DNA of 53,460 nucleotides from IMG/VR virus record IMGVR_UViG_3300018432_000008, positions 1-53,460 of that record. The stretch is one strand, 5' to 3'. Below the pieces are notes generated by a model. That model made no database searches. It saw only the letters and a list, made by a program, of their open reading frames with translations, and was not told where the DNA came from. How positions within the stretch are numbered: the stretch's first letter is position 1; every line of letters begins with the position of its first letter. A program made the translations under genes and the position numbers. Shown here piece after piece: positions 2,197 to 51,485 of this stretch. The stretch comes from a virus.

Positions 2197-2395
2197 ACAA
2201 GAAAACCAAAGCGCCGGACGAGTGGCCGCGTCAACGACCACCCGCCCGATTCCACACCCCCGCCATTACACGGGAGCAGGCCATGAAGCACACTATCGGT
2301 AAGATAGGCAATCGCCATGAGAATCCACCGAGAATCCTCTAAGCGGCATTCACCGTAGCGCGCCAGCCGTATCGGCGTCTGAGTACCCCACGCCG

Positions 2396-2785
2396 ATGAA
2401 TTGGGAACAACTAGAGCAGCTTGGCGAAAAGTTCGGGTGGGCGATCGTAGCGGTCGTCCTGCTGGGCATTGCGCTGCACAAGGAAATCTTCACCCTCGGC
2501 CGCGAGACGGGTGCCGTTCGCAAAGAGCTTGAGCGGCACCGTACGGAGATCGAAGCCGAGCGGACCCGCCACCGCTTGGAAATGGAAGCCGAGCGTCAAC
2601 GCCAGCGGGAGGAGATCGAACGCATTCAGGAGCGGCACGGCTTCGCCGTCAGCAAATGGGAAGCGATGGCGGATGCGAACAACGTTCTGCTGCGTGATGC
2701 GCAAGCACAATTGAGCCGGGCGACCGGAATTGCCGAGAACCTTGCGGATAAGTTGGCACAGCTTTTGACGCGGGACAAGGCATGA
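2396..2785 (+). CDS. Membrane protein with long coiled coil
   Basis: A 129-residue protein with one membrane helix at about residues 14-27 (GWAIVAVVLLGIAL). A long highly charged coiled coil at about 38-90 follows (ELERHRTEIEAERTRHRLEMEAERQR). Such short TM-plus-coil proteins are common in phage lysis and tail regions, and spanin-like use is conceivable. No Shine-Dalgarno is seen. About 190 bp upstream (2210-2395) contains no convincing gene. Confidence 0.6.
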   Translation: MNWEQLEQLGEKFGWAIVAVVLLGIALHKEIFTLGRETGAVRKELERHRTEIEAERTRHRLEMEAERQRQREEIERIQERHGFAVSKWEAMADANNVLLRDAQAQLSRATGIAENLADKLAQLLTRDKA

Positions 2786-3000
2786 GTCGTATCACCGAAC
2801 TAGAGCAGCGCGAGATGGGCGACGAGATGGCTTACGAGCGCTACGTTGAGCATCAGCGCAGCATTGTAGAAATCCGCGAACAACAGCGACGTACCAATGC
2901 CCGCCTTGATCGACTGGAATCCATCATTCTGCCTGGAGTTTCTGTCGGCGGCGGCAGCGCTGATCGGCGCGACGATCAGCGGACGGTTCACCTACAGTAG
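2782..3000 (+). CDS. Small coiled-coil protein overlapping the next frame
   Basis: A 72-residue protein whose ATG overlaps the previous stop (ATGA). The first 48 residues are a convincing charged helix (SRITELEQREMGDEMAYERY). The last 20 are Gly/Arg/Asp-rich and look like out-of-frame sequence. The following gene's frame (from 2897) already looks coding there. A shared overlap, or a +1 frameshift joining the two, is possible. Confidence 0.5.
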   Translation: MSRITELEQREMGDEMAYERYVEHQRSIVEIREQQRRTNARLDRLESIILPGVSVGGGSADRRDDQRTVHLQ

Positions 3001-3244
3001 CCATCGCACGCTGCGGAACATGCTGGCCGACAAGGTCGTGTTCGGCATCGTCTTTGCCAAGACGAAGCGTCGCACCAACGCGACACTGTTCTTCGTTCAG
3101 CTCACTTTGATCGTCGCGTGCGTCTACCGAATCCATCCTTTTCTGGGCTGGGCCGTTGTACCCGCTGCGATGCGGCTGGCGATGTCCCTTGCCGTTATCC
3201 GCTGCTGCTGGCTGAACGCGCGTGACCGGCGGGAACTGGCGTGA
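2897..3244 (+). CDS. Multi-pass small membrane protein
   Basis: A 115-residue protein with hydrophobic segments at about 13-29 (CLEFLSAAAALIGATISG), 65-76 (LFFVQLTLIVACVY) and 80-101. These are separated by basic loops (FAKTKRRTNAT). It resembles holin-like or superinfection-immunity membrane proteins in architecture only. No Shine-Dalgarno precedes the ATG at 2897, and the true start may be a later non-ATG codon. It overlaps the preceding gene by 104 bases and is coupled to the next by GTGA. Confidence 0.5.
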   Translation: MPALIDWNPSFCLEFLSAAAALIGATISGRFTYSSHRTLRNMLADKVVFGIVFAKTKRRTNATLFFVQLTLIVACVYRIHPFLGWAVVPAAMRLAMSLAVIRCCWLNARDRRELA

Positions 3245-3663
3245 CGCACATGTCCCAGCGGGTCTCACTCAAAGAGCACCTTGAGAAGCTACAGCACGAG
3301 CGCGACCGGTTCGCCTCCGAACGTGACCGCCGCTATTGCGAAGTGGCCTTGGAGCGCGAAAAGGCGCTGAAGATCAAGGACGTTGCCGACCGCGACGCGC
3401 TGCAACTGGCGAGAGAAATCCAGACGTACAAGGACACTCAGGCCAACGAGCTGCGGGAGCAGATTAACCGTGAGCGCGTCCTGTACACGACCAAGGCTGA
3501 CTTGACCGCCGCGGTGGAGAAGTTGGAAGCGACGATCAAGCCGCTCGTGACGTACACCACTTCGCAGCAGGGCAAGAGCACGGGTTTATCGGCGTGGTTT
3601 GGCTACATCTGTGGCGCGGTGGGCATCGTCGCAACCGTCGTCGCCATCGCTTGGAAAGGTTAA
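3241..3663 (+). CDS. Tail-anchored coiled-coil protein (phage lysis-module type)
   Basis: A 140-residue protein. Residues about 8-100 are a long charged helix of the type LREH..RDRRY..L..KDVADRDALQLA, familiar from phage proteins encoded beside holins. The C-terminus is a single membrane helix (GYICGAVGIVATVVAIAW). It would be anchored in the inner membrane by its tail, with the coil on one side. It starts at GTG 3241 (GTGA overlap) or at ATG 3250. XhlA-like membrane-associated lysis factors are the nearest functional comparison, with modest confidence. Confidence 0.6.
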   Translation: MTHMSQRVSLKEHLEKLQHERDRFASERDRRYCEVALEREKALKIKDVADRDALQLAREIQTYKDTQANELREQINRERVLYTTKADLTAAVEKLEATIKPLVTYTTSQQGKSTGLSAWFGYICGAVGIVATVVAIAWKG

Positions 3664-3666
3664 CCC

Positions 3667-3816
3667 ATGTCGCTGATCGTACTCATCCTAATTCTCATCG
3701 CCGCTGGCGCTGCCGTGACGTACATCCCGATGGACCGGCGCATCCGCACGGCCATCGTCGTGGTGTGTGTGGTGGTGGCTGTACTGTGGTTGCTGAGATT
3801 TGCTGGGCTGATTTAG
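3667..3816 (+). CDS. Small two-helix membrane protein, Thivi_2564 family
   Basis: A 49-residue protein with two hydrophobic helices joined by the loop TYIPMDRRIR (LIVLILILIAAGAAV and TAIVVVCVVVAVLWLL). The pattern helix-YIPMD-x-IR-helix-WLLxxFG is characteristic of the Thivi_2564 family found in phages and bacteria. Its exact role is unknown; a holin-like role is plausible here. Its end overlaps the end of the convergent gene at 3813 by four bases. Confidence 0.65.
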   Translation: MSLIVLILILIAAGAAVTYIPMDRRIRTAIVVVCVVVAVLWLLRFAGLI

Positions 3817-4121
3817 GCGTACTGAGGTGGTCTGACCCGTTCCCAGCCAAGGCGTTCAAGCAGCGGTTCCCACGCTTCAACGCGATGATTCTTATAGGGG
3901 TCAATCGTTGAGATGCTTTGTACGTCGCCGTCTCGCGCAATGATCTTCAGCCTGCCGTCGTCAGCGCCGGGTGTAAGTTCAAGTTCCCACTGGTCGCCTT
4001 GGCTGCGGACGACTTCGCATTTGAAGTGAATCAGATCACCGGACCACTCGTTGAAGGGTCCGATCTTGCCGAGTAGGTCAAGGTCTTCCTGACGCCATGT
4101 GCCGGTTCGTTTGAATCGCAT
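3813..4121 (-). CDS. Hypothetical protein on a probably leaderless mRNA
   Basis: A 102-residue soluble protein (MRFKRTGTWRQEDLDLLGKI...). The sequence suggests a small beta-rich fold with a conserved-looking WELELTPGADDGRLKII strand pair. The start at 4121 is chosen because a TATAGT box ends exactly 6 nt before it. The in-frame upstream extension would be promoter sequence. No family is recognised. Confidence 0.55.
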   Translation of the reverse strand: MRFKRTGTWRQEDLDLLGKIGPFNEWSGDLIHFKCEVVRSQGDQWELELTPGADDGRLKIIARDGDVQSISTIDPYKNHRVEAWEPLLERLGWERVRPPQYA

Positions 4122-4127
4122 CCCCAC

Positions 4128-4135
4128 ACTATACC
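4128..4135 (-). promoter_or_regulatory. Extended -10 promoter (leaderless type) for 3813-4121
   Basis: The minus strand reads TGG-TATAGT-GTGGGG-ATG, an extended -10 box with the same 6-nt gap to the start codon as at 2182, 19104, 19536, 36180 and 39037. There is no recognisable -35 and no room for a Shine-Dalgarno. Confidence 0.55.
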
Positions 4136-4150
4136 ACGCGAATCGAGCCA

Positions 4151-5563
4151 ATGGACCGCTCAACCGTCATCTCATCCGTCCAAGCCATCATCGACGCTGG
4201 CGACCTAGCCGCCGCTACGCTGGTGTTCTCACCCGCAGACGAGGTAGAGCTTGTCCCGACGCCAGCGCCGCCCCCGCCCGCACCTGTCGGCGTGACGGAC
4301 TTGAAGGGCCGCTACGATAAAGCAAGCAAGAAAGCGGTCCTGACGTACACCTACGACCGTACGAAAAACCCCTACGTCGTCCTGCGCGACGATGTCCTGA
4401 TCCAGAACTACGAGGACAACAACGGCGACGCGAACGTTCCGCATACAGGCACGCGCCGCTATCGAGTCCGCGACAAGGCGGGCGTGCTGTCCAACGAAGT
4501 GACGGTGAGCGTGACGGGCGTGGTGCCGGGCGAAGTGCCGCCGGTGACGCCGCCCATCCCGCAGCCCGAACCGACCCCCGGCGGTGTACTGCGCGTGGGC
4601 AGCGACGGCGACGTGAAGACGTTGGCTGAGATGAAGGCGAAGCTGAAGGACGGGCTGACCGTTCTGTTCCGCCAGGGCGAGACGTTCGCCACGGCCGGCA
4701 CTATCGAGATACGCCAGAAGAACGTCCGCTTCCTTACCTACGGCACGGATACGCAGCGCCCGGTGCTGCGGTATGACGGGGGCGGTCAGTACAACCCGCT
4801 GTTCATGCTGCGCAGCGCCAAGGCCGTTGAGTTCGTCGGCTTCACGCTGGAAACCACGGGCATCCACCCCGCGTTTGAGTTCACGGACGGCGCTGGTGGT
4901 CACTTCCACCACCTTCACTCGGAAAAGGGGAAGCTCGGCCACTTCATGCAGATCAAGAACGGTGCCGGCATCCTCGTGGAATACTGCGAGAACCTTGGGG
5001 TCCAGCGGTACGACATCTTCGTTGACAAGGTCCGCGGCCTGATCGTGCGCAAGAACGTGTTCCTGTCGTCTGTCCACGCGGACGAGAACGAGCACAAGGT
5101 GCGGATGTACAACGCTGAGGACGTGGAGATATCGGACAACCGGATGGAAGAGGGGCGCAAGTCCTGCGTCAACTTCCGCGACGGCGAGCGGGTGAAGATT
5201 CTCCGCAACGACTTCACCGGCCCGAGCGGCATGACCGTCGGCGCGCTGATGGACGACGACGGTTCGCCGACGGCAGACCTTGGCACCGACGACACGCTGA
5301 TCGAGTCCAACACGTTCCGCAATGGCGGCATCGACGTGGAGTTGGGCGCGAAGAACACGCGCATCCACAGCAACGTGTTCCACCCGAAGAAACCGGGGCA
5401 AGCGTTCATCAAGTTCGACTATCAGGAACGGTTCAAGGGACGTGGCCCGGCCAGCGGAGAAGTCATCGGCAACATCGTCCACGGCGGCGGCAAGCTGTAC
5501 TCGCTCACGAAGGGCGGCACAGTCAAAGACTTTACGATGGCGGATAACGAGTCGGTGGCGTGA
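4151..5563 (+). CDS. Right-handed beta-helix tail protein (tailspike or fibre)
   Basis: A 470-residue protein. Residues 1-35 are a short helical attachment region. About 47-125 is an immunoglobulin/FN3-like domain (VTDLKGRYDKASKKAVLTYTYDR...RRYRVRDKAG). A Pro-rich linker of about 20 residues precedes a parallel beta-helix from about 145 to 465. The helix shows short repeating strands such as VEFVGFTLETTG, LIVRKNVFL, VEISDNRM, VKILRNDF and TLIESNTF. Pectate-lyase-fold proteins of this kind bind or cleave surface polysaccharide on phage tails. The catalytic residues cannot be assigned by eye. It is coupled to the next gene by GTGA. Confidence 0.75.
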   Translation: MDRSTVISSVQAIIDAGDLAAATLVFSPADEVELVPTPAPPPPAPVGVTDLKGRYDKASKKAVLTYTYDRTKNPYVVLRDDVLIQNYEDNNGDANVPHTGTRRYRVRDKAGVLSNEVTVSVTGVVPGEVPPVTPPIPQPEPTPGGVLRVGSDGDVKTLAEMKAKLKDGLTVLFRQGETFATAGTIEIRQKNVRFLTYGTDTQRPVLRYDGGGQYNPLFMLRSAKAVEFVGFTLETTGIHPAFEFTDGAGGHFHHLHSEKGKLGHFMQIKNGAGILVEYCENLGVQRYDIFVDKVRGLIVRKNVFLSSVHADENEHKVRMYNAEDVEISDNRMEEGRKSCVNFRDGERVKILRNDFTGPSGMTVGALMDDDGSPTADLGTDDTLIESNTFRNGGIDVELGAKNTRIHSNVFHPKKPGQAFIKFDYQERFKGRGPASGEVIGNIVHGGGKLYSLTKGGTVKDFTMADNESVA

Positions 5564-16118: not shown

Positions 16119-17192
16119 ATGGGTTGTCAGATTGACGGATGCGGTCGTCCTGTGAAATGTCGCGGAATGTGCAACGCGCATTACGTGCGGCACATGAACG
16201 AGGTGCATTCGACGCGATTCTCTGCGGTGTGCCCGACGTGTAACCAGACGTTCTTTTCTCGACGGCCCAAGAAGTTTTGCGGGCTTCGATGTTACGTGAA
16301 CAGTTCTCAGTTCAAAGAACACAGTGTCGGCAATTTTGAGCGTATCAATCGCTCCAGAGTCGCGAGAGGCGCACCTGACGAGCCATTACCGTGCGTTCAT
16401 TGCGGAAAGCCGCTGCCTAATCGCAAGGTGTCGCGGAAGTACTGCAACCAGCGATGTTATCGCGCATTCATGGCGGGCCGATTTGATCGGTGGATTGCCA
16501 ACCCACAAACGCTCGCACTACCGCAAGCCTATGACGAGTTTCTGTCTCAGTCAGAGCTTCCGTGCTTGGTTGAAGGGTGTGATTGGGTAGGCAAACAGCT
16601 CTCCAACCATATGAATTCTGCCCACGGGGTTCGGGCTCGTGATTTCAAGATGTTGGCTGGGTTCAATCTGACAACGGGCGTCGTGTCTGCCGAAACCGCA
16701 GAGGCATTGGCAAGCCGATCGCACATTCACGATGCGCCGGGTGTCCGGCAACCCAACACCAAAGGCAAGCAGGGAACGTACAAGAGTTTGGAAGGCAGAG
16801 AGCACTCGCTGAAGTCGCGATCCATCGCAGATTTTAGTGAAGCCAACATTCGTAACTCTCAGCGTCTGAGTACGCCTGAAGCGAAGCAGGCGATGCGGGA
16901 ACTAATCGCACGCACTAGGGCAAACCAGCCTGAGCGACGATCAACGTGTTTACAGTGTGAAAAGACGTTCACGTATCGAAACATGAAGGCCCCAAAGTAC
17001 TGTGGGGAAAGCTGCCAGCATCTTGCGCGGCTGCATAGGAACAGGACTGAGCCGTGGCACCCTTTGCCGTGTGCACAGTGCGGCCAATCGTTCATGGCGA
17101 CGCGAAACGTGGTTCGTATGCGACGGTGGGCCAACAACGAAGTGTTCTGTTCAGAGGATTGCCGTCTCGCTCGTAAGTTGGTGGTTGCATGA
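16119..17192 (+). CDS. Multi-zinc-finger protein, putative mobile (homing-type) gene
   Basis: A 357-residue protein built of cysteine/histidine modules. Residues 1-25 carry IDGCGRPVKCRGMCNAHYVRH, the finger often found at the front of phage HNH homing proteins. CPTCNQTF...FCGLRC lies at about 38-60, CVHCGKP...YCNQRC at about 90-112, CLVEGCDWVG...HMNSAHG at about 148-170 (a MucR/Ros-like finger), and CLQCEKTF...YCGESC plus CAQCGQSF...FCSEDC in the C-terminal third. No HNH or other catalytic motif is obvious. It interrupts the conserved portal-MuF order and looks less GC-rich than its neighbours, so it is probably acquired. A Shine-Dalgarno-like AAAGGACAGGTG precedes it. Confidence 0.6.
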   Translation: MGCQIDGCGRPVKCRGMCNAHYVRHMNEVHSTRFSAVCPTCNQTFFSRRPKKFCGLRCYVNSSQFKEHSVGNFERINRSRVARGAPDEPLPCVHCGKPLPNRKVSRKYCNQRCYRAFMAGRFDRWIANPQTLALPQAYDEFLSQSELPCLVEGCDWVGKQLSNHMNSAHGVRARDFKMLAGFNLTTGVVSAETAEALASRSHIHDAPGVRQPNTKGKQGTYKSLEGREHSLKSRSIADFSEANIRNSQRLSTPEAKQAMRELIARTRANQPERRSTCLQCEKTFTYRNMKAPKYCGESCQHLARLHRNRTEPWHPLPCAQCGQSFMATRNVVRMRRWANNEVFCSEDCRLARKLVVA

Positions 17193-17449
17193 ACCGACGC
17201 TCATTCTTCTCGTCCATCGGCGGATTCCTTGCCGCCGCGATATGCGCCAAGTTCCTCTCTGCTCGCCCCGAGCCTGAGTGGCCGTGGGAGGTGGAGAAGA
17301 TCGAGTATGGATTCGCTGATTTGCGTGATGGTGTGGCGGATGTCACGGTGACGTACACGCTCAAGACCCCGCGCACCAATGAGAGTGCGGTTGAACTGCT
17401 CGCGCGAATCGCGAACAACACCGTTGACAGCCCGCACGTGCAACTTTGA
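17189..17449 (+). CDS. Small exported protein with Tat-like signal
   Basis: An 86-residue protein. MNRRSFFSSIGGFLAAAICA reads as a twin-arginine-type signal (RRSFF followed by a hydrophobic stretch). The remaining 60 residues are a small beta-rich domain (DVTVTYTLKTPR). It is ATGA-coupled to the zinc-finger gene, and its TGA overlaps the TTG start of MuF. Export of a phage protein encoded inside the head module is unexpected. The signal may simply be a membrane anchor. Confidence 0.5.
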   Translation: MNRRSFFSSIGGFLAAAICAKFLSARPEPEWPWEVEKIEYGFADLRDGVADVTVTYTLKTPRTNESAVELLARIANNTVDSPHVQL

Positions 17450-19341
17450 CCCCGCGCACCCGACAACTCGCCCTGACCATCGACCGTGACCGCCGCCGCC
17501 TGGAACTGATCGGCGTGCGTGCGGCCCACCGCATCGGCACGCAAGCGCGAACACTCGCCTACGCTGCTTGGCGAACCACACGTGACGTACACGCGGTACG
17601 CAACGCGGTAACGAACGTCCTGCGCGGCAACGCTCGGCTCGGGTTGACCGGTATTACTCCGCTGATCCGTGACGGGATGGTCACGGCGCACCTTGAGGGG
17701 CGCAGGCGGACGGCCATTCTTGCCGCACCGGAGTTACGCAAGGGGCTGAAGCTGTCCGTGTCGGCGTTTGACGAGGCGCTGCGGTTCCTCATTCGCCGGC
17801 TCATGCTCACTCCCGCGCAGCTTGAAGCGTTGCGGGCCGGTTTCCAGGCTGAGGCGTTGCGCGTGACCGACGTGCTGACGGGGCAGATCGAGAAGGCTGT
17901 TGAGTCGGTGCTCATTGAGCAAATCAGCGAAGGCGCGAGCGTACCGGAAGGGGTAACGGCGCTGCGGCGGACGTTCGAATCCGAGGGGTTCGTACCCGCT
18001 GCGGACCACACGCTTGAAGCGGTGTTTCGCACGCAGACGCAGACGGCTTACAGCGCGGGACGGTGGAACGCGCTACAGGACCCTGCGATTCAGGACATCC
18101 TTTGGGGCTTCGAATACGCGGCCATCACAGACGACCGCGTGACCGAGGACATCTGCTTGCCGCTGAACGGCATGGTGCGGACGAAGGATGATCCGGTGTG
18201 GCAGCGATTGACACCACCGAACCACTGGAACGCTTTGGCGTCTGGAACACTGATTCGCACGCAGGCTGGCGAAGTTCCGATTGAGTGGGTTCAGCCCGGC
18301 GATCAGGTGTTCACGCATCGTGGTCGGTTCCGGCGCGTGTATGCCGCGATGGAGAAGCGGGCCAAGCCGATTATCCGCGAGCTACACCTTTCGACCGGAC
18401 GGCGTTTGCGAATCACGGATGAGCACCCGGTACTTACGTCTTGCGGGTGGCAACCCGCTGGGAATCTCAATGCTGGGGACGTGCTGTTTGAGCACATCGA
18501 GAAAGTGGCCGGGAGCGGTCACGTTCTCCTGTCTCACCCTGAGAATTTTCCATCCCTTATCGATGAGCCATTGATCCCGTGGGACGTCGTGCGACTGACG
18601 GGGGCGACTACCGTGCCCCTTGCCGTCGATCTCTACGATGGTCATGAAACGGGGAAAGGCGAAGTCGATAACGAACGACCCGATGGCGTATTGGAAGGCG
18701 AACTCTGCGCCACAGCGAATCAGCAAGTCGCGAAACAGTGCTTCGTAGGCGGTGGGCTTCTGACGCCAAGCGTTAGCCTTGCCGATCGCCGCAGTCTCAC
18801 GAACTCGTGCGTTACGCATCGGGTTCGACCGCTTCATTCGTTCCGAAGAATCCGGCCGGGACTTTCCGTAGCACCAGTGGCGAACCCCTTGATGCTTCGC
18901 CAAAACTTCGGGGAGTCGGCCAGTGATTTTCATTTGATCGGTCTTGCTGCGAACGGCAATGCCGAACCGCTTGCACGCCGCAGACAGGGCGGTCTTTCCA
19001 AGCCCGAGCGAGCGTTCGATGGAGCGGAGCGATTCTCCCCTAGTCAAATGACGGTCGGCGATGAGGTCGGCCAAGACTTGCTTGTCAGTGAAATGTGGCG
19101 TCATGCGACAATCATACGAATTGTCGAAGTACCGTCAACAACGAAGGTTCACAACCTCGCGGTTGAAGACGACGAAACGTATTTGGCTGAAGGCGTGATC
19201 GTCCACAATTGCCGCAGCACGATCCTCGAACTGTACGACGAACGACCGATTACGCCTGTCCCGAACGTGACGCCGCAGCGCGGGTTCGGGTTCAACCCCG
19301 GCAACGTGTTCCGCGACACGATCAGGCCCGCAGCAGCATGA
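17446..19341 (+). CDS. MuF-like minor head protein interrupted by an intein
   Basis: A 631-codon open frame starting at TTG 17446 (overlapping the previous TGA). Residues 1-262 and 589-631 together make a 305-residue MuF-family minor head protein, which sits on the portal and acts in head assembly. The helical core VFRTQTQTAYSAGRWNALQDP (in two parts, about 195-215) and the conserved PPNHWN followed by CRSTILEL are diagnostic. The join lies at that conserved Asn-Cys. Residues 263-588 are an intein, described separately. No sense-strand stop interrupts the frame, so the precursor can be translated fully and spliced. Confidence 0.85.
   Translation: MTPRTRQLALTIDRDRRRLELIGVRAAHRIGTQARTLAYAAWRTTRDVHAVRNAVTNVLRGNARLGLTGITPLIRDGMVTAHLEGRRRTAILAAPELRKGLKLSVSAFDEALRFLIRRLMLTPAQLEALRAGFQAEALRVTDVLTGQIEKAVESVLIEQISEGASVPEGVTALRRTFESEGFVPAADHTLEAVFRTQTQTAYSAGRWNALQDPAIQDILWGFEYAAITDDRVTEDICLPLNGMVRTKDDPVWQRLTPPNHWNALASGTLIRTQAGEVPIEWVQPGDQVFTHRGRFRRVYAAMEKRAKPIIRELHLSTGRRLRITDEHPVLTSCGWQPAGNLNAGDVLFEHIEKVAGSGHVLLSHPENFPSLIDEPLIPWDVVRLTGATTVPLAVDLYDGHETGKGEVDNERPDGVLEGELCATANQQVAKQCFVGGGLLTPSVSLADRRSLTNSCVTHRVRPLHSFRRIRPGLSVAPVANPLMLRQNFGESASDFHLIGLAANGNAEPLARRRQGGLSKPERAFDGAERFSPSQMTVGDEVGQDLLVSEMWRHATIIRIVEVPSTTKVHNLAVEDDETYLAEGVIVHNCRSTILELYDERPITPVPNVTPQRGFGFNPGNVFRDTIRPAAA
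18382..19104 (-). CDS. Antisense DUF559/Vsr-like (EDxHD-type) endonuclease nested in the intein
   Basis: A 240-residue protein on the strand opposite the intein. Residues about 22-52 form a helix-turn-helix-like DNA-binding segment (SLRSIERSLGLGKTALSAAC). Residues about 117-195 are a PD-(D/E)XK-superfamily nuclease of the DUF559/Vsr type. It contains PTAYEALFRDLLIR with Glu121, SFVIDFAFP with Asp147, IVEIDGKGH with Glu158, Asp160 and His164, then PRDQWLIDKGWKILRV with Asp177. The E-D-x-H-D order is that of the EDxHD homing family. Its codons are exactly in register with the sense codons (sense residues 313-553), so it must avoid TTA, CTA and TCA to keep the intein open. Its 18 leucines obey this. 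A consensus promoter precedes the ATG. The role as the intein's homing nuclease is inferred. Confidence 0.75.
   Translation of the reverse strand: MTPHFTDKQVLADLIADRHLTRGESLRSIERSLGLGKTALSAACKRFGIAVRSKTDQMKITGRLPEVLAKHQGVRHWCYGKSRPDSSERMKRSNPMRNARVRETAAIGKANAWRQKPTAYEALFRDLLIRCGAEFAFQYAIGSFVIDFAFPRFMTIVEIDGKGHGSRPRQSHDVPRDQWLIDKGWKILRVRQENVTAPGHFLDVLKQHVPSIEIPSGLPPARRKYRVLIRDSQTPSGRKV
19111..19138 (-). promoter_or_regulatory. Sigma70-type promoter of the antisense endonuclease
   Basis: On the minus strand TTGACG (19138-19133) is followed after 16 bases by TATGAT (19116-19111), then TGTCGC and ATG. The -35 and 16-base spacer match this phage's own early promoters at 33612 and 36244. The 6-nt gap to ATG matches five other minus-strand starts. 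It lies inside the intein's C-terminal coding half. Confidence 0.7.
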
Positions 19342-33611: not shown

Positions 33612-33666
33612 TTGACGACCCACCGCCACGGGTTAAACTAGCAGCATTAGTGACACACGTTGTCAC
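33612..33666 (+). promoter_or_regulatory. Early promoter with palindromic operator
   Basis: TTGACG at 33612-33617, 16 bases, then TAAACT at 33634-33639, followed just past the expected start by GTGACA-N5-TGTCAC at 33650-33666. The same hexamer recurs inverted at 36222-36227 and 36282-36287 around the second early promoter. A shared repressor is implied. This would drive the ParB-methyltransferase operon. Confidence 0.65.
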
Positions 33667-33694
33667 ATCTCTGAACCATATCCGAGGCTTGCCT

Positions 33695-35038
33695 ATGACG
33701 GTCGCTGCTGCCCCCACCGTTCGGATTGACCCTGAGTTCCAAGCACTGATCCCGCCGCTGTCTGACGACGAACGGCGGCAGCTTGAAGAAAACATCAAGG
33801 CGGACGGGTGCCGCGATCCGCTGGTGACGTGGAAGGGCGTGCTGCTCGATGGGCATAACCGGCACGAAATCTGTGAACGGCTCGGCATCCCGTATGAAAC
33901 GGCTGAACTTGAATTTACCGACCATGCGTCAGCAAAGGTCTGGATCATCCGCAATCAGTTCGGACGACGGAACTTGGCCCCGTTCCAGCGGGCAGAGTTA
34001 GCGATGGCCCTTGAGCCACTCATCGCGCCCAAGGCCAAGGCAAACCAACGAGAAAGTCGCGGTCGTCACGAAAAGAAATCCATATGCCAGAACTGCAAAA
34101 CCGCGCACTGGCCAGACGAGGGGTGTTCTAAAGGTCCGCAGAAGTCTGCGAACCTTAAGCGAGTTGACACGCGCGCCGAAATCGCTGCCGTGGCTGGCGT
34201 ATCTCACGACACCATCCACAAAGCCAAGGTCATTGCCGCCAAAGCACCTGAGCCCGTGAAGGCCAAGCTGCGCACGGGCGAGATCAGCATCAACGCGGCG
34301 TACAAAGACGTGCGCAAGGCTGAGCGCCGCGAGACGAATGCCACCAAGCAAAAGGATGCCGCCGCCGCGCAACCCGCCCACAAGCTTTGGACGGTCACGA
34401 AAGACGTAGCGGTCGTCAAGTGCGACGCGCTCGTCACCGATCCGCCCTACGGCATCTTAGACGAACCGTGGGAACCCGCTGAGCTTGAAAAGTTTACGCG
34501 CGAGTGGGCGGGGCGGTGGAACGGCTGCGGCGCGGACATCGCACTGATATTTTTCAGCCAGCGTCACCTGTTCGATGGGCGGCGATGGTTCGATGAATCT
34601 CTCGCGTCCTACCAGTTCCAGCAGTTACTCGTCTGGCACTACCCCAACAACAAGAGCCCGCAGAGTCGCCAAGGGTTCAAGCAGACGTGGGAGCCGATCT
34701 ACCTGTACCGACGGCGGGACAGCACAAAGCAAATCCTCGTGGACGGCAGTGAGTGGGGCGATGGTCTGAACGACTTTGACTGTCACGTCGCCGCCGTACC
34801 TCAGTCAAATTTCAACGACGCCGAGGAAAAGCAGCACCCTGCACAAAAGCCGGTCGCCGTGATGCGCTGGCTCGTTGCCGCAGCTACCCGCCCGAACGAT
34901 CTCGTCTGCGATCCATTCTCTGGCAGCGGCACCACGGGCATTGCCGCCACAAAGCTCGGCCGTCGATACCACGGCATCGAAACCAATCCTGAATACCTCC
35001 GCATGTCCGAAGGTCGCCTCGCGCTGTATGGCCGTTGA
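33695..35038 (+). CDS. ParB-like domain fused to DNA methyltransferase
   Basis: A 447-residue protein. Residues about 10-95 are a ParB/sulfiredoxin-type domain (IPPLSDDERRQLEENIKADG, VLLDGHNRHEICERLGI, FGRRNLAPFQRAE). About 145-215 includes an HTH (EIAAVAGVSHDTIHKAKVI). About 240-445 is a beta-class DNA methyltransferase: DPPYG at 249-253 first, and the AdoMet motif DPFSGSGTTG at 406-415 last. It probably methylates adenine-N6 or cytosine-N4 to protect phage DNA. Start ATG 33695 is used because the earlier GTG lies within the operator. First gene of the early operon. Confidence 0.85.
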   Translation: MTVAAAPTVRIDPEFQALIPPLSDDERRQLEENIKADGCRDPLVTWKGVLLDGHNRHEICERLGIPYETAELEFTDHASAKVWIIRNQFGRRNLAPFQRAELAMALEPLIAPKAKANQRESRGRHEKKSICQNCKTAHWPDEGCSKGPQKSANLKRVDTRAEIAAVAGVSHDTIHKAKVIAAKAPEPVKAKLRTGEISINAAYKDVRKAERRETNATKQKDAAAAQPAHKLWTVTKDVAVVKCDALVTDPPYGILDEPWEPAELEKFTREWAGRWNGCGADIALIFFSQRHLFDGRRWFDESLASYQFQQLLVWHYPNNKSPQSRQGFKQTWEPIYLYRRRDSTKQILVDGSEWGDGLNDFDCHVAAVPQSNFNDAEEKQHPAQKPVAVMRWLVAAATRPNDLVCDPFSGSGTTGIAATKLGRRYHGIETNPEYLRMSEGRLALYGR

Positions 35039-49727: not shown

Positions 49728-50350
49728 CTTACGAGAGCCCTATCGAAGAACGGATGGGCGTGGCAATGGCGAAAGCCTTCCACCCCGGCGTCACCATTGA
49801 AACGCAGCGGAAGGTAGCGGCGCACGGCGAGAAGTTCCGGCTGGACTTTCATGTTGAGTATCAGGGAACACGCCTAGCCGTGGAGTGCGACGGCAAAGAC
49901 TACCACGAGTACCACCGTGACCGGCGACGCGACCTACTCACCATCGACTCAGGGGCCGTGACGGACGTGTTCCGGCTGCGCGGGACGGACATCGTCTACG
50001 ACGCTGAGGCGTGCGTCACCTACATGCGGTCGTTCTTCCCGTCGCTGTTTGAGGCAGACGCGACGCGCGTGGCGATTGGAGACCTGCTCGACTGGTCATG
50101 CCTGATGTACCACGGCTGTATCAAACCCATTGCTCGTATGACGTTCTCAGCCGATGAGATCCGTGACAACTCCCGCCTGATTAACAGCGGGGCGTGCTGC
50201 GCAACAGATGGTCTTCTCTTGCGTGACGGGTCGTTCGGAATTGTCACATTCAAGACGCCGGACTGGGACTGGAAGGGTCACAAGGAAAACATGCTGATCA
50301 AGACGTTCGCTGATGTGCTTGACCCGGCACCGTGCCAGGTGCGGTCATGA
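49724..50350 (+). CDS. PD-(D/E)XK (DUF559-like) nuclease
   Basis: A 208-residue protein ATGA-coupled to dnaB. SPIEERMGVAMAKAF with an early Glu, FRLDFHVEYQGTRLAVECDG with Asp and E-x-D, then KDYHEYHRDRRRDLLTID and VFRLRGTDIVYD make a DUF559/Vsr-type nuclease core at about 5-105. This is the same superfamily as the antisense intein nuclease. The C-terminal 100 residues are unassigned. A replication-linked repair or host-DNA nuclease is plausible. Confidence 0.7.
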   Translation: MTYESPIEERMGVAMAKAFHPGVTIETQRKVAAHGEKFRLDFHVEYQGTRLAVECDGKDYHEYHRDRRRDLLTIDSGAVTDVFRLRGTDIVYDAEACVTYMRSFFPSLFEADATRVAIGDLLDWSCLMYHGCIKPIARMTFSADEIRDNSRLINSGACCATDGLLLRDGSFGIVTFKTPDWDWKGHKENMLIKTFADVLDPAPCQVRS

Positions 50351-50430
50351 CGCGCGCCGAGTTGCCTGCCGTCCCTGTCTCATCTCGCGTCCCTGCGGCG
50401 GTAGCGATCGCAGTAGCGGGGGTGGCATGA
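50347..50430 (+). CDS. Possible 27-residue coupling peptide
   Basis: ATG 50347 overlaps the nuclease stop and its TGA (50428-50430) overlaps the methyltransferase ATG at 50427. The Ala/Val-rich product (VPAAVAIAVAGVA) may be a leader that merely couples translation. No other evidence that it is a functional protein. Confidence 0.3.
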   Translation: MTRAELPAVPVSSRVPAAVAIAVAGVA

Positions 50431-51485
50431 GCGCTCTACTCGGCCAAGCCGACGCAACGAGATTGCCGCTGGCAACGGGCAGCGTGGACATGGTGTTTAC
50501 GAGCCCGCCCTACGCAGACGCGCGCACCTACGGCATCGGCGCGCAGCGGAAGTGCGACGAGTGGGTCCAGTGGATGCTGAAGGTCGTGACGGAACTCACG
50601 CGCGTCTGTTCAGGGCTCGTGCTCGTGAACTGCGCAGGCGTGACCCGTGACCGCTGCTACTGGCCCGCGTGCGAAGGGCTGATGTGGGAGTGGTGGAAGC
50701 AGGGCGGCAACCTTTGGCGTCCCGCTTATTGGCATCGCGTGGGCATCCCCGGCAGCGGCGGCAAGCAATGGTTGCGTGCTGACATCGAATACGTCCTGTG
50801 CTTCAAGCGCGATGCTGAGTGGTTGCCGTGGTCGGACAACACGGCGAACGGACACCCGCCGAAATGGGCACCGGGCGGGGAGATGGCGCACAGGCTGACG
50901 AATGGGCAGCGTGTTAACCAGTGGGGTCCGGTTGGTGGTCCGCGCGGCGGTGGTGGTCGGAACGCGGATGGGACTTCCAAGCCGAGCAGGATGCAAGCGG
51001 CAGCCGAGAACGGCTATCCGTCTCACATCATTACGCAGATCCGCCCCGTGGGTGCCGTGGTCAGGAAAGCGATTAGCAGGCAGCACACCAAGTCTCGCGC
51101 AGACGGGACCGATGAGATTCAGGACTACACGCCGCCCGTTCTCGCTAACCCCGGCTGTCTCGTGAAGGGCATCAAGGTTGGTGGCGGGTTGCTCGGTAGC
51201 AAGCTCGCCCACGAGAACGAAGCGCCCTTTCCAGAAGCCCTAGCCGAGTGGTTCATCAAGGGATGGGCAAAGCCGGGCGGCATCGTGCTTGACCCCTTCA
51301 GCGGCAGCGGCACCACAGTCAGCGTCGCGCGTCGCCTCGGTCGCAAGGGCATCGGCTTCGACCTGAGAATGAACCAATGCGAACTCGGCACGCGCCGACT
51401 CGCTGAACCGCTGCGGATCAACGGCAAGCGCCCCCGCCCCATCGTCACCACGTCTGAACCTTCCCTCTTCGCGGAGACAGCATGA
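50427..51485 (+). CDS. DNA methyltransferase (N4-cytosine/N6-adenine type)
   Basis: A 352-residue enzyme. The catalytic motif TSPPY is at 25-29 and the AdoMet motif DPFSGSGTT at 289-297, so it is a beta-class MTase. TSPPY favours cytosine-N4. A long variable insert of about 150 residues (Gly/Arg-rich, GGPRGGGGRNADGTSKPS) is probably the target-recognition region. Together with the ParB-fused MTase it gives this phage two DNA methylases. No matching restriction enzyme is obvious. Confidence 0.85.
   Translation: MSALLGQADATRLPLATGSVDMVFTSPPYADARTYGIGAQRKCDEWVQWMLKVVTELTRVCSGLVLVNCAGVTRDRCYWPACEGLMWEWWKQGGNLWRPAYWHRVGIPGSGGKQWLRADIEYVLCFKRDAEWLPWSDNTANGHPPKWAPGGEMAHRLTNGQRVNQWGPVGGPRGGGGRNADGTSKPSRMQAAAENGYPSHIITQIRPVGAVVRKAISRQHTKSRADGTDEIQDYTPPVLANPGCLVKGIKVGGGLLGSKLAHENEAPFPEALAEWFIKGWAKPGGIVLDPFSGSGTTVSVARRLGRKGIGFDLRMNQCELGTRRLAEPLRINGKRPRPIVTTSEPSLFAETA

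Follow-up and report, generated by a model that had tools for sequence, protein, structure and literature searches.

A homing-type nuclease gene encoded antisense, in exact codon register, within contiguous MuF inteins of bacteriophages

Results

A contiguous MuF intein with a nuclease gene on its opposite strand

The window, i.e. the whole stretch of 53,460 nucleotides analysed here, contains an uninterrupted open reading frame (ORF) of 631 aa (17446-19341, plus strand), which encodes a MuF capsid protein and matches the Pfam families Phage_Mu_F (3.7e-10), Intein_splicing (1.2e-8) and Hint_2 (4.7e-7) as well as phrog_220 (8e-20). Its first part, the MuF N-extein (17446-18231), starts with TTG, ends with ...PPNHWN and accounts for the Phage_Mu_F and phrog_220 matches. 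It is followed by an intein of 326 aa (18232-19209; Ala1...Asn326), which carries the Intein_splicing and Hint_2 matches, and by the C-extein (19210-19341; CRSTILEL...), the Cys of which is residue +1. All characteristic splicing elements of an intein can be found: block A (ALASGTLIRTQAG, with ALASGT; 18232-18270), block B (TDEHPVLTSC, with the TxxH motif; 18415-18444), block F (VHNLAVEDDETYLAEG, with VHNLAV; 19147-19194), block G with the C-terminal splice junction (AEGVIVHN^C; 19186-19212), the terminal Asn and the +1 nucleophile. Judging from the known intein classes, the combination of Ala1, terminal Asn and Cys+1 points to a class-2-like intein. The ORF is contiguous, i.e. the gene is not fractured into split-intein halves, and a Pfam search in the sense frame yielded no nuclease domain.

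A nuclease gene is located on the other strand. A 240-codon ORF with an ATG start codon (18382-19104, minus strand; stop codon 18382-18384) lies entirely within the intein, and its product matches DUF559 (3.3e-12) and, weakly, REase_MTES_1575. Sense and antisense codons are exactly complementary (register 0), and TTA, CTA and TCA, which would create stop codons in the sense frame, are absent from the nuclease gene. The first-pass annotation had described this gene, its codon register and the avoidance of the three codons, all of which our analysis corroborates. As block B is part of the overlap, the C-terminal tail of the nuclease, KYRVLIRDSQ, is the complement of TDEHPVLTSC, and this stretch thus encodes a conserved motif on both strands.

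The N-terminal region of the nuclease is helical (predicted helices: residues 8-21, 26-33 and 39-47), and residues 121-195 constitute the nuclease core with E121, D147, E158, D160, H164 and D173. D147, E158, D160, H164 and D173 are invariant in the wider family (24 sequences), whereas the strict conservation of E121 is confined to those relatives that are embedded in inteins. The EDxHD core proposed at first thus holds for D147, E158, D160 and H164, but the final Asp is D173 rather than D177. An AlphaFold2 model based on 24 sequences (pLDDT 87, pTM 0.62) has the homing endonuclease I-Bth0305I as top PDB match in Foldseek (3r3p; E 5e-4, TMt 0.69), and Vsr (1cw0; TMt 0.47) is among the leading nuclease matches, so that the comparison with Vsr, DUF559 and I-Bth0305I suggested by the first-pass annotation came out in favour of a homing-type nuclease.

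The expression signals in the window are less clear. The promoter-like element noted earlier, TTGACG (19138-19133) and TATGAT (19116-19111) separated by 16 nt and ending 6 nt upstream of the ATG (19111-19138, minus strand), is present, but with a 10/12 match it is not significant when compared to synonymous-codon shuffles (p=0.36) and is best regarded as weak and putative. A Shine-Dalgarno (SD) sequence is absent upstream of the nuclease ATG, and block F does not serve as ribosome-binding site here, unlike in family 2 (see below).

The antisense arrangement is a conserved class

Homologues of the window nuclease are termed window-type and homologues of the antisense nuclease of Jerseyvirus LSPA1 family 2 in the following. 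In tblastn searches three cultured, AT-rich Vibrio phages (MG592630, MG592631 and MG592457) match the window nuclease with 97-99% coverage and 31-32% identity, opposite coding sequences annotated as hint or coil protein. Their translations agree with the window in both MuF-intein layout and register, and the two that were tested also match DUF559. Scans of IMG/VR yielded four further window-type loci (L021-L024), likewise antisense in MuF-type inteins.

The MuF intein of Jerseyvirus LSPA1 harbours an antisense ORF coding for a helix-turn-helix (HTH) region plus a nuclease, and its homologues are found in 106 phage records (Salmonella, Gordonia, Klebsiella, Vibrio, Acinetobacter, Edwardsiella, Aaphi23 and others). 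In a scan of bacterial genomes with the nuclease profile the sole match was the Aaphi23 prophage. Homology between window-type and family-2 nucleases extends along the entire protein (hhalign probability 99.3, E 2.9e-20), and the family-2 AlphaFold2 model (58 sequences; pLDDT 87, pTM 0.69) also has I-Bth0305I as top match (TMt 0.67-0.71). The family-2 exteins, tested for 10 loci, belong to MuF, VG15 or Phage_min_cap2. All family-2 loci inspected are antisense in register 0, except for that of Acinetobacter phage P1068 (L013), where a free-standing nuclease gene (2306-3196) lies just 3' of an intein-less MuF gene in convergent orientation; L074 and L169 are free-standing as well. Among the IMG/VR family-2 loci, 121 of 123 are embedded in contiguous inteins. 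Mycobacterium phage Sejanus (L184) carries a family-2 EDxHD nuclease (3031-3930, minus strand) antisense in an intein that is inserted elsewhere in the MuF gene (VC...HN^CTIDGKTRPSHW). Hence, the search for further MuF inteins of this kind that had been recommended was successful, and the antisense nuclease in the MuF intein is a conserved class, not a single oddity.

Both frames are under selection

An open antisense frame alone says little, as register-0 antisense ORFs are common in the genome of the window, and for the window nuclease taken alone the probability of containing none of the three forbidden codons is ~0.09. The relatives, on which the two-strand constraint was analysed as the first-pass annotation had advised, are more informative. 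In six Jersey-type phages the differences in the overlap are distributed over sense codon positions 1/2/3 at 57/12/31%, as compared to 24/16/61 and 16/9/75% in the exteins, and in the non-overlapped C-terminal part of the intein 93% of the differences fall on sense position 3. As the differences in the overlap concentrate on sense position 1, i.e. the third position of the antisense codon, the substitutions follow the antisense codons. Consistently, 539 differing codon pairs in the overlap are synonymous in the antisense frame only vs. 163 in the sense frame only. Between the window and L021 the distribution is 44/27/30% in the overlap and 29/24/47% upstream, with an identity of 32% for the sense linker and 51% for the nuclease, and 7 of 9 differences between the Vibrio loci L003 and L004 are located at sense position 1.

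The sense frame leaves its mark in the avoidance of TTA, CTA and TCA. In 14 embedded nucleases these codons are never used, although ~107 would be expected from the codon usage of each phage, and 93 distinct family-2 loci lack them, too (~417 expected). The free-standing nuclease of P1068, in contrast, contains 12, with 12.5 being expected. As the loci are phylogenetically related, the summed probabilities of codon avoidance are not independent and thus overstated, but the contrast to the free-standing copy is direct. Sense and antisense frames are both under selection.

Splicing motifs double as expression signals in the relatives

In family 2 block F reads HVYNL[EQ], encoded e.g. by CAT GTT TAT AAC CTC GAA, and the opposite strand, TTC GAG GTT ATA AAC ATG, constitutes an SD sequence followed by ATG; block F thus doubles as start signal of the nuclease (L054-L172). 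The residue preceding the Val of block F is His in 81 of 95 family-2 loci, with CAT as codon in 71, and only 38% of the His codons elsewhere in the family-2 exteins are CAT. Accordingly, an antisense start codon (ATG, GTG or TTG) is found at block F in 84/95 loci and is ATG in 71/95, with an SD-like sequence in 62 of these 71. Perfect sigma-70 promoter elements (TTGACA-N16-18-TATAAT) are located upstream on the antisense strand in 8 of 93 family-2 loci, and seven more have an 11/12 match; matches of at least 11/12 occur neither on the sense strand of the segments scanned nor in 627 extein control segments.

Other nucleases and other frames

Gordonia phage Lennon (L182; 3097-3684, minus strand) and its relatives, nine records altogether, have an antisense register-0 gene in an intein at the same MuF site. 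The encoded nuclease is unrelated and LAGLIDADG-like (motif AAFIDGEG; phrog_5046 'HNH endonuclease', 2e-15; weak I-MsoI match, 0.0012). Lennon and Barsten differ at sense positions 1/2/3 by 43/4/9 in the nuclease core and by 6/4/30 in the N-extein. To judge from these sequence features, a LAGLIDADG-like nuclease has converged on the antisense position in the MuF intein.

DUF559 nucleases of the window type also occur in a second kind of nesting, in which they share the strand of a contiguous intein but use a different frame. The inteins concerned belong to DnaX-like clamp loaders, to SNF2 and DEAD/ResIII helicases and, as judged by eye, to a terminase-like protein; in L025, for instance, the nuclease (3653-4495) is situated inside the ORF 3031-5139. 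Over 18 distinct loci of this type the sense frame has 0 stops vs. 322 expected, and 373 are found in the remaining plus frame. Most of the loci L025-L051 are nested in this way and are therefore no free-standing controls. The helicase intein of Vibrio phage 1.194.O (L183) has no nuclease in its antisense frames, but carries one on the same strand (3254-4042; HMM 1e-44). Nuclease matches also fall within the helicase coding sequences of CP-T1, MR14 and phi673, as far as the position of the match is concerned, regardless of its frame, while a mini-intein in the terminase of an archaeal virus (L185) contains no antisense nuclease at E<=10.

In the clamp-loader intein L049, which contains a same-strand nuclease, one in-frame stop, located inside the nuclease overlap, divides the sense frame into two ORFs (2974-3933 and 3937-5115). 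L049 may possibly be a newborn split intein, with a sequencing error as alternative.

Movement and decay of the intein

Empty MuF sites, PPAHPN^CRS, are present in the relatives K1ind3, ER18, Ent1 and SETP7; an intein-less allele of the window's own MuF gene was not found. The inteins of LSPA1 and jersey UPWr_S1 are 96.6% identical, but their N-exteins share only ~66-68% identity for the greater part of their length, and the distal half of the LSPA1 N-extein is ~92% identical to that of an intein-less Kagunavirus. Near-identical inteins in divergent MuF alleles indicate that the intein has passed from one MuF lineage to another.

In four homologues (L086, L100, L105 and L125) the nuclease frame is broken and the sense frame is intact, a combination that the first-pass annotation had listed as speaking against its reading. 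As 117 of the 121 matched stretches are intact, however, decay in the course of the homing cycle is a better explanation for the four broken nucleases than a refutation, and we regard these copies as likely products of such a cycle.

Discussion

Based on these findings it is very probable that the window harbours a mobile MuF intein whose homing nuclease has a gene of its own, encoded codon on codon on the strand opposite the intein linker. This rests directly on the architecture, the conservation of and selection on two frames, the homology of the nuclease to homing nucleases and its fold, the expression signals in the relatives and the horizontal movement; the proposal that the intein is contiguous and its homing-type nuclease a separate antisense gene has thus gained strong support. 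According to this model the ribosome would read through the sense frame, with the complement of the nuclease gene serving as a linker of ~200 residues, and splicing would remove the linker together with the Hint domain, leaving MuF intact. The nuclease would be produced independently from an antisense transcript. During co-infection it may then cut intein-less MuF alleles at PPxHxN^C, and the intein would be copied in. From the genetic code, register 0 is expected to be favoured, since it is the sole antisense register in which the sense frame can be kept open through synonymous choices.

Several other explanations have to be weighed. A GC-rich coding strand may leave the register-0 frame open, nuclease-like residues being coincidental, and both the many register-0 antisense ORFs in the window and the probability obtained for the window alone would be compatible with this. 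Yet the match to DUF559, equally placed homologues in AT-rich Vibrio phages, substitutions that track the antisense codons, and promoters and SD sequences in the relatives leave virtually no room for a chance ORF; homology and the codon-position test already refute it, and together with the fact that further phages have conserved this layout they exclude chance. Conversely, the nuclease may be real and the sense frame dead, i.e. the intein would not splice and MuF would be broken or made from another copy. The poor conservation of the sense linker as compared to the nuclease fits this idea, but stop-making codons are absent where hundreds are expected, in contrast to the free-standing homologue, the catalytic blocks A, B, F and G are conserved, and the MuF gene, of which a second copy was not noticed, lies between the genes for portal and capsid. 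We therefore consider a dead sense frame very improbable.

The function of the nuclease might also lie elsewhere. Homing nucleases can take part in competition between phages, and the antisense transcript would overlap the MuF mRNA, so that anti-phage competition, superinfection exclusion or damping of MuF could be the actual purpose, mobility being incidental. The homing-nuclease fold, the one conserved insertion site (HPN^C), the inteins shared by divergent alleles and the decay of some copies, as expected of homing elements, render this rather unlikely. Finally, as the first-pass annotation had suggested, the arrangement may be a step on the way to fractured genes, in which the intein is split and the EDxHD gene stands alone. 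The nuclease fold is reportedly that associated with fractured genes, and L049 suggests how one stop within the nuclease overlap may split an intein, but L049 belongs to the same-strand type, and no split form was found in the antisense class. As antisense nesting is frequent, broadly distributed and stable (121/123 loci contiguous), it appears to be an architecture in its own right, and a transitional stage is unlikely, if the least implausible of these alternatives.

The mobile intein with its antisense nuclease gene shares features with several known systems. As in canonical inteins with in-frame LAGLIDADG or HNH nucleases, a Hint domain is interrupted by a homing nuclease, and the element would be mobile into empty alleles; here, however, the nuclease is out of the intein frame, outside the precursor and presumably expressed independently. 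EDxHD homing endonucleases such as I-Bth0305I, which occur in group I introns, resemble the window nuclease in catalytic fold and motif, N-terminal helices of the DNA-binding type, C-terminal nuclease and phage hosts. Dassa and colleagues are said to have described EDxHD nucleases with fractured split-intein genes in 2009. Whereas introns or the space between the halves of split-intein genes are the location in those cases, the gene described here lies antisense, codon on codon, in a contiguous intein. The closest parallel in orientation is the nuclear group I intron L2066 of Didymium, which contains an antisense homing nuclease gene that is separately expressed and whose product cuts the empty site (PMC9548176). 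In both cases the gene is on the opposite strand within a self-splicing element, but the Didymium nuclease belongs to the His-Cys family, and its intron is spliced as RNA, so that nothing requires the strand opposite the nuclease to be readable. In the MuF intein this strand must remain an open protein frame.

We found no report of an antisense or out-of-frame nuclease in an intein in the open-access text searched, which does not prove its absence from the literature. The 'intein-containing capsid morphogenesis protein' of Jerseyvirus/Kagunavirus has the same MuF intein: a study of UPWr_S (gp15; PMC8425127) mentions the intein and not the antisense gene, and in the record of phage Snoke (MK931441) the MuF intein is annotated and the antisense nuclease is unannotated. 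The arrangement probably represents a third architecture of intein mobility, beside in-frame and free-standing nucleases, hidden in well-known phages in which the overlapping gene lacks an annotation. It recurs in well over a hundred phages and offers a rich natural collection of extended gene overlaps with strong support, in which the register of the MuF-intein overlaps has a clear reason and splicing motifs are re-used as expression signals of the other strand. Taken together, it is likely that homing nucleases of contiguous inteins commonly use alternative frames (antisense register 0 in MuF-type inteins, same-strand and out-of-frame in clamp-loader, helicase and terminase inteins), that EDxHD and LAGLIDADG-like nucleases converged on this solution, that splicing motifs also provide the nuclease with its promoter, its ribosome-binding site and its start codon, and that single stops in the linker give rise to natural split inteins. 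Two questions thereby become testable, namely how nucleases escape control by the splicing element in which they reside, and what gives rise to split inteins and fractured genes.

Between portal and MuF the window contains a gene for a 357-aa protein (16119-17192, plus strand) that matches phrog_1271, HNH endonuclease (1.2e-17), and therefore is a second homing-type nuclease gene, probably free-standing, directly beside the MuF intein. Two other genes of the window match phrog_67, DNA methyltransferase (33650-35038, plus strand, 8.8e-45; 50313-51485, plus strand, 1.6e-31).
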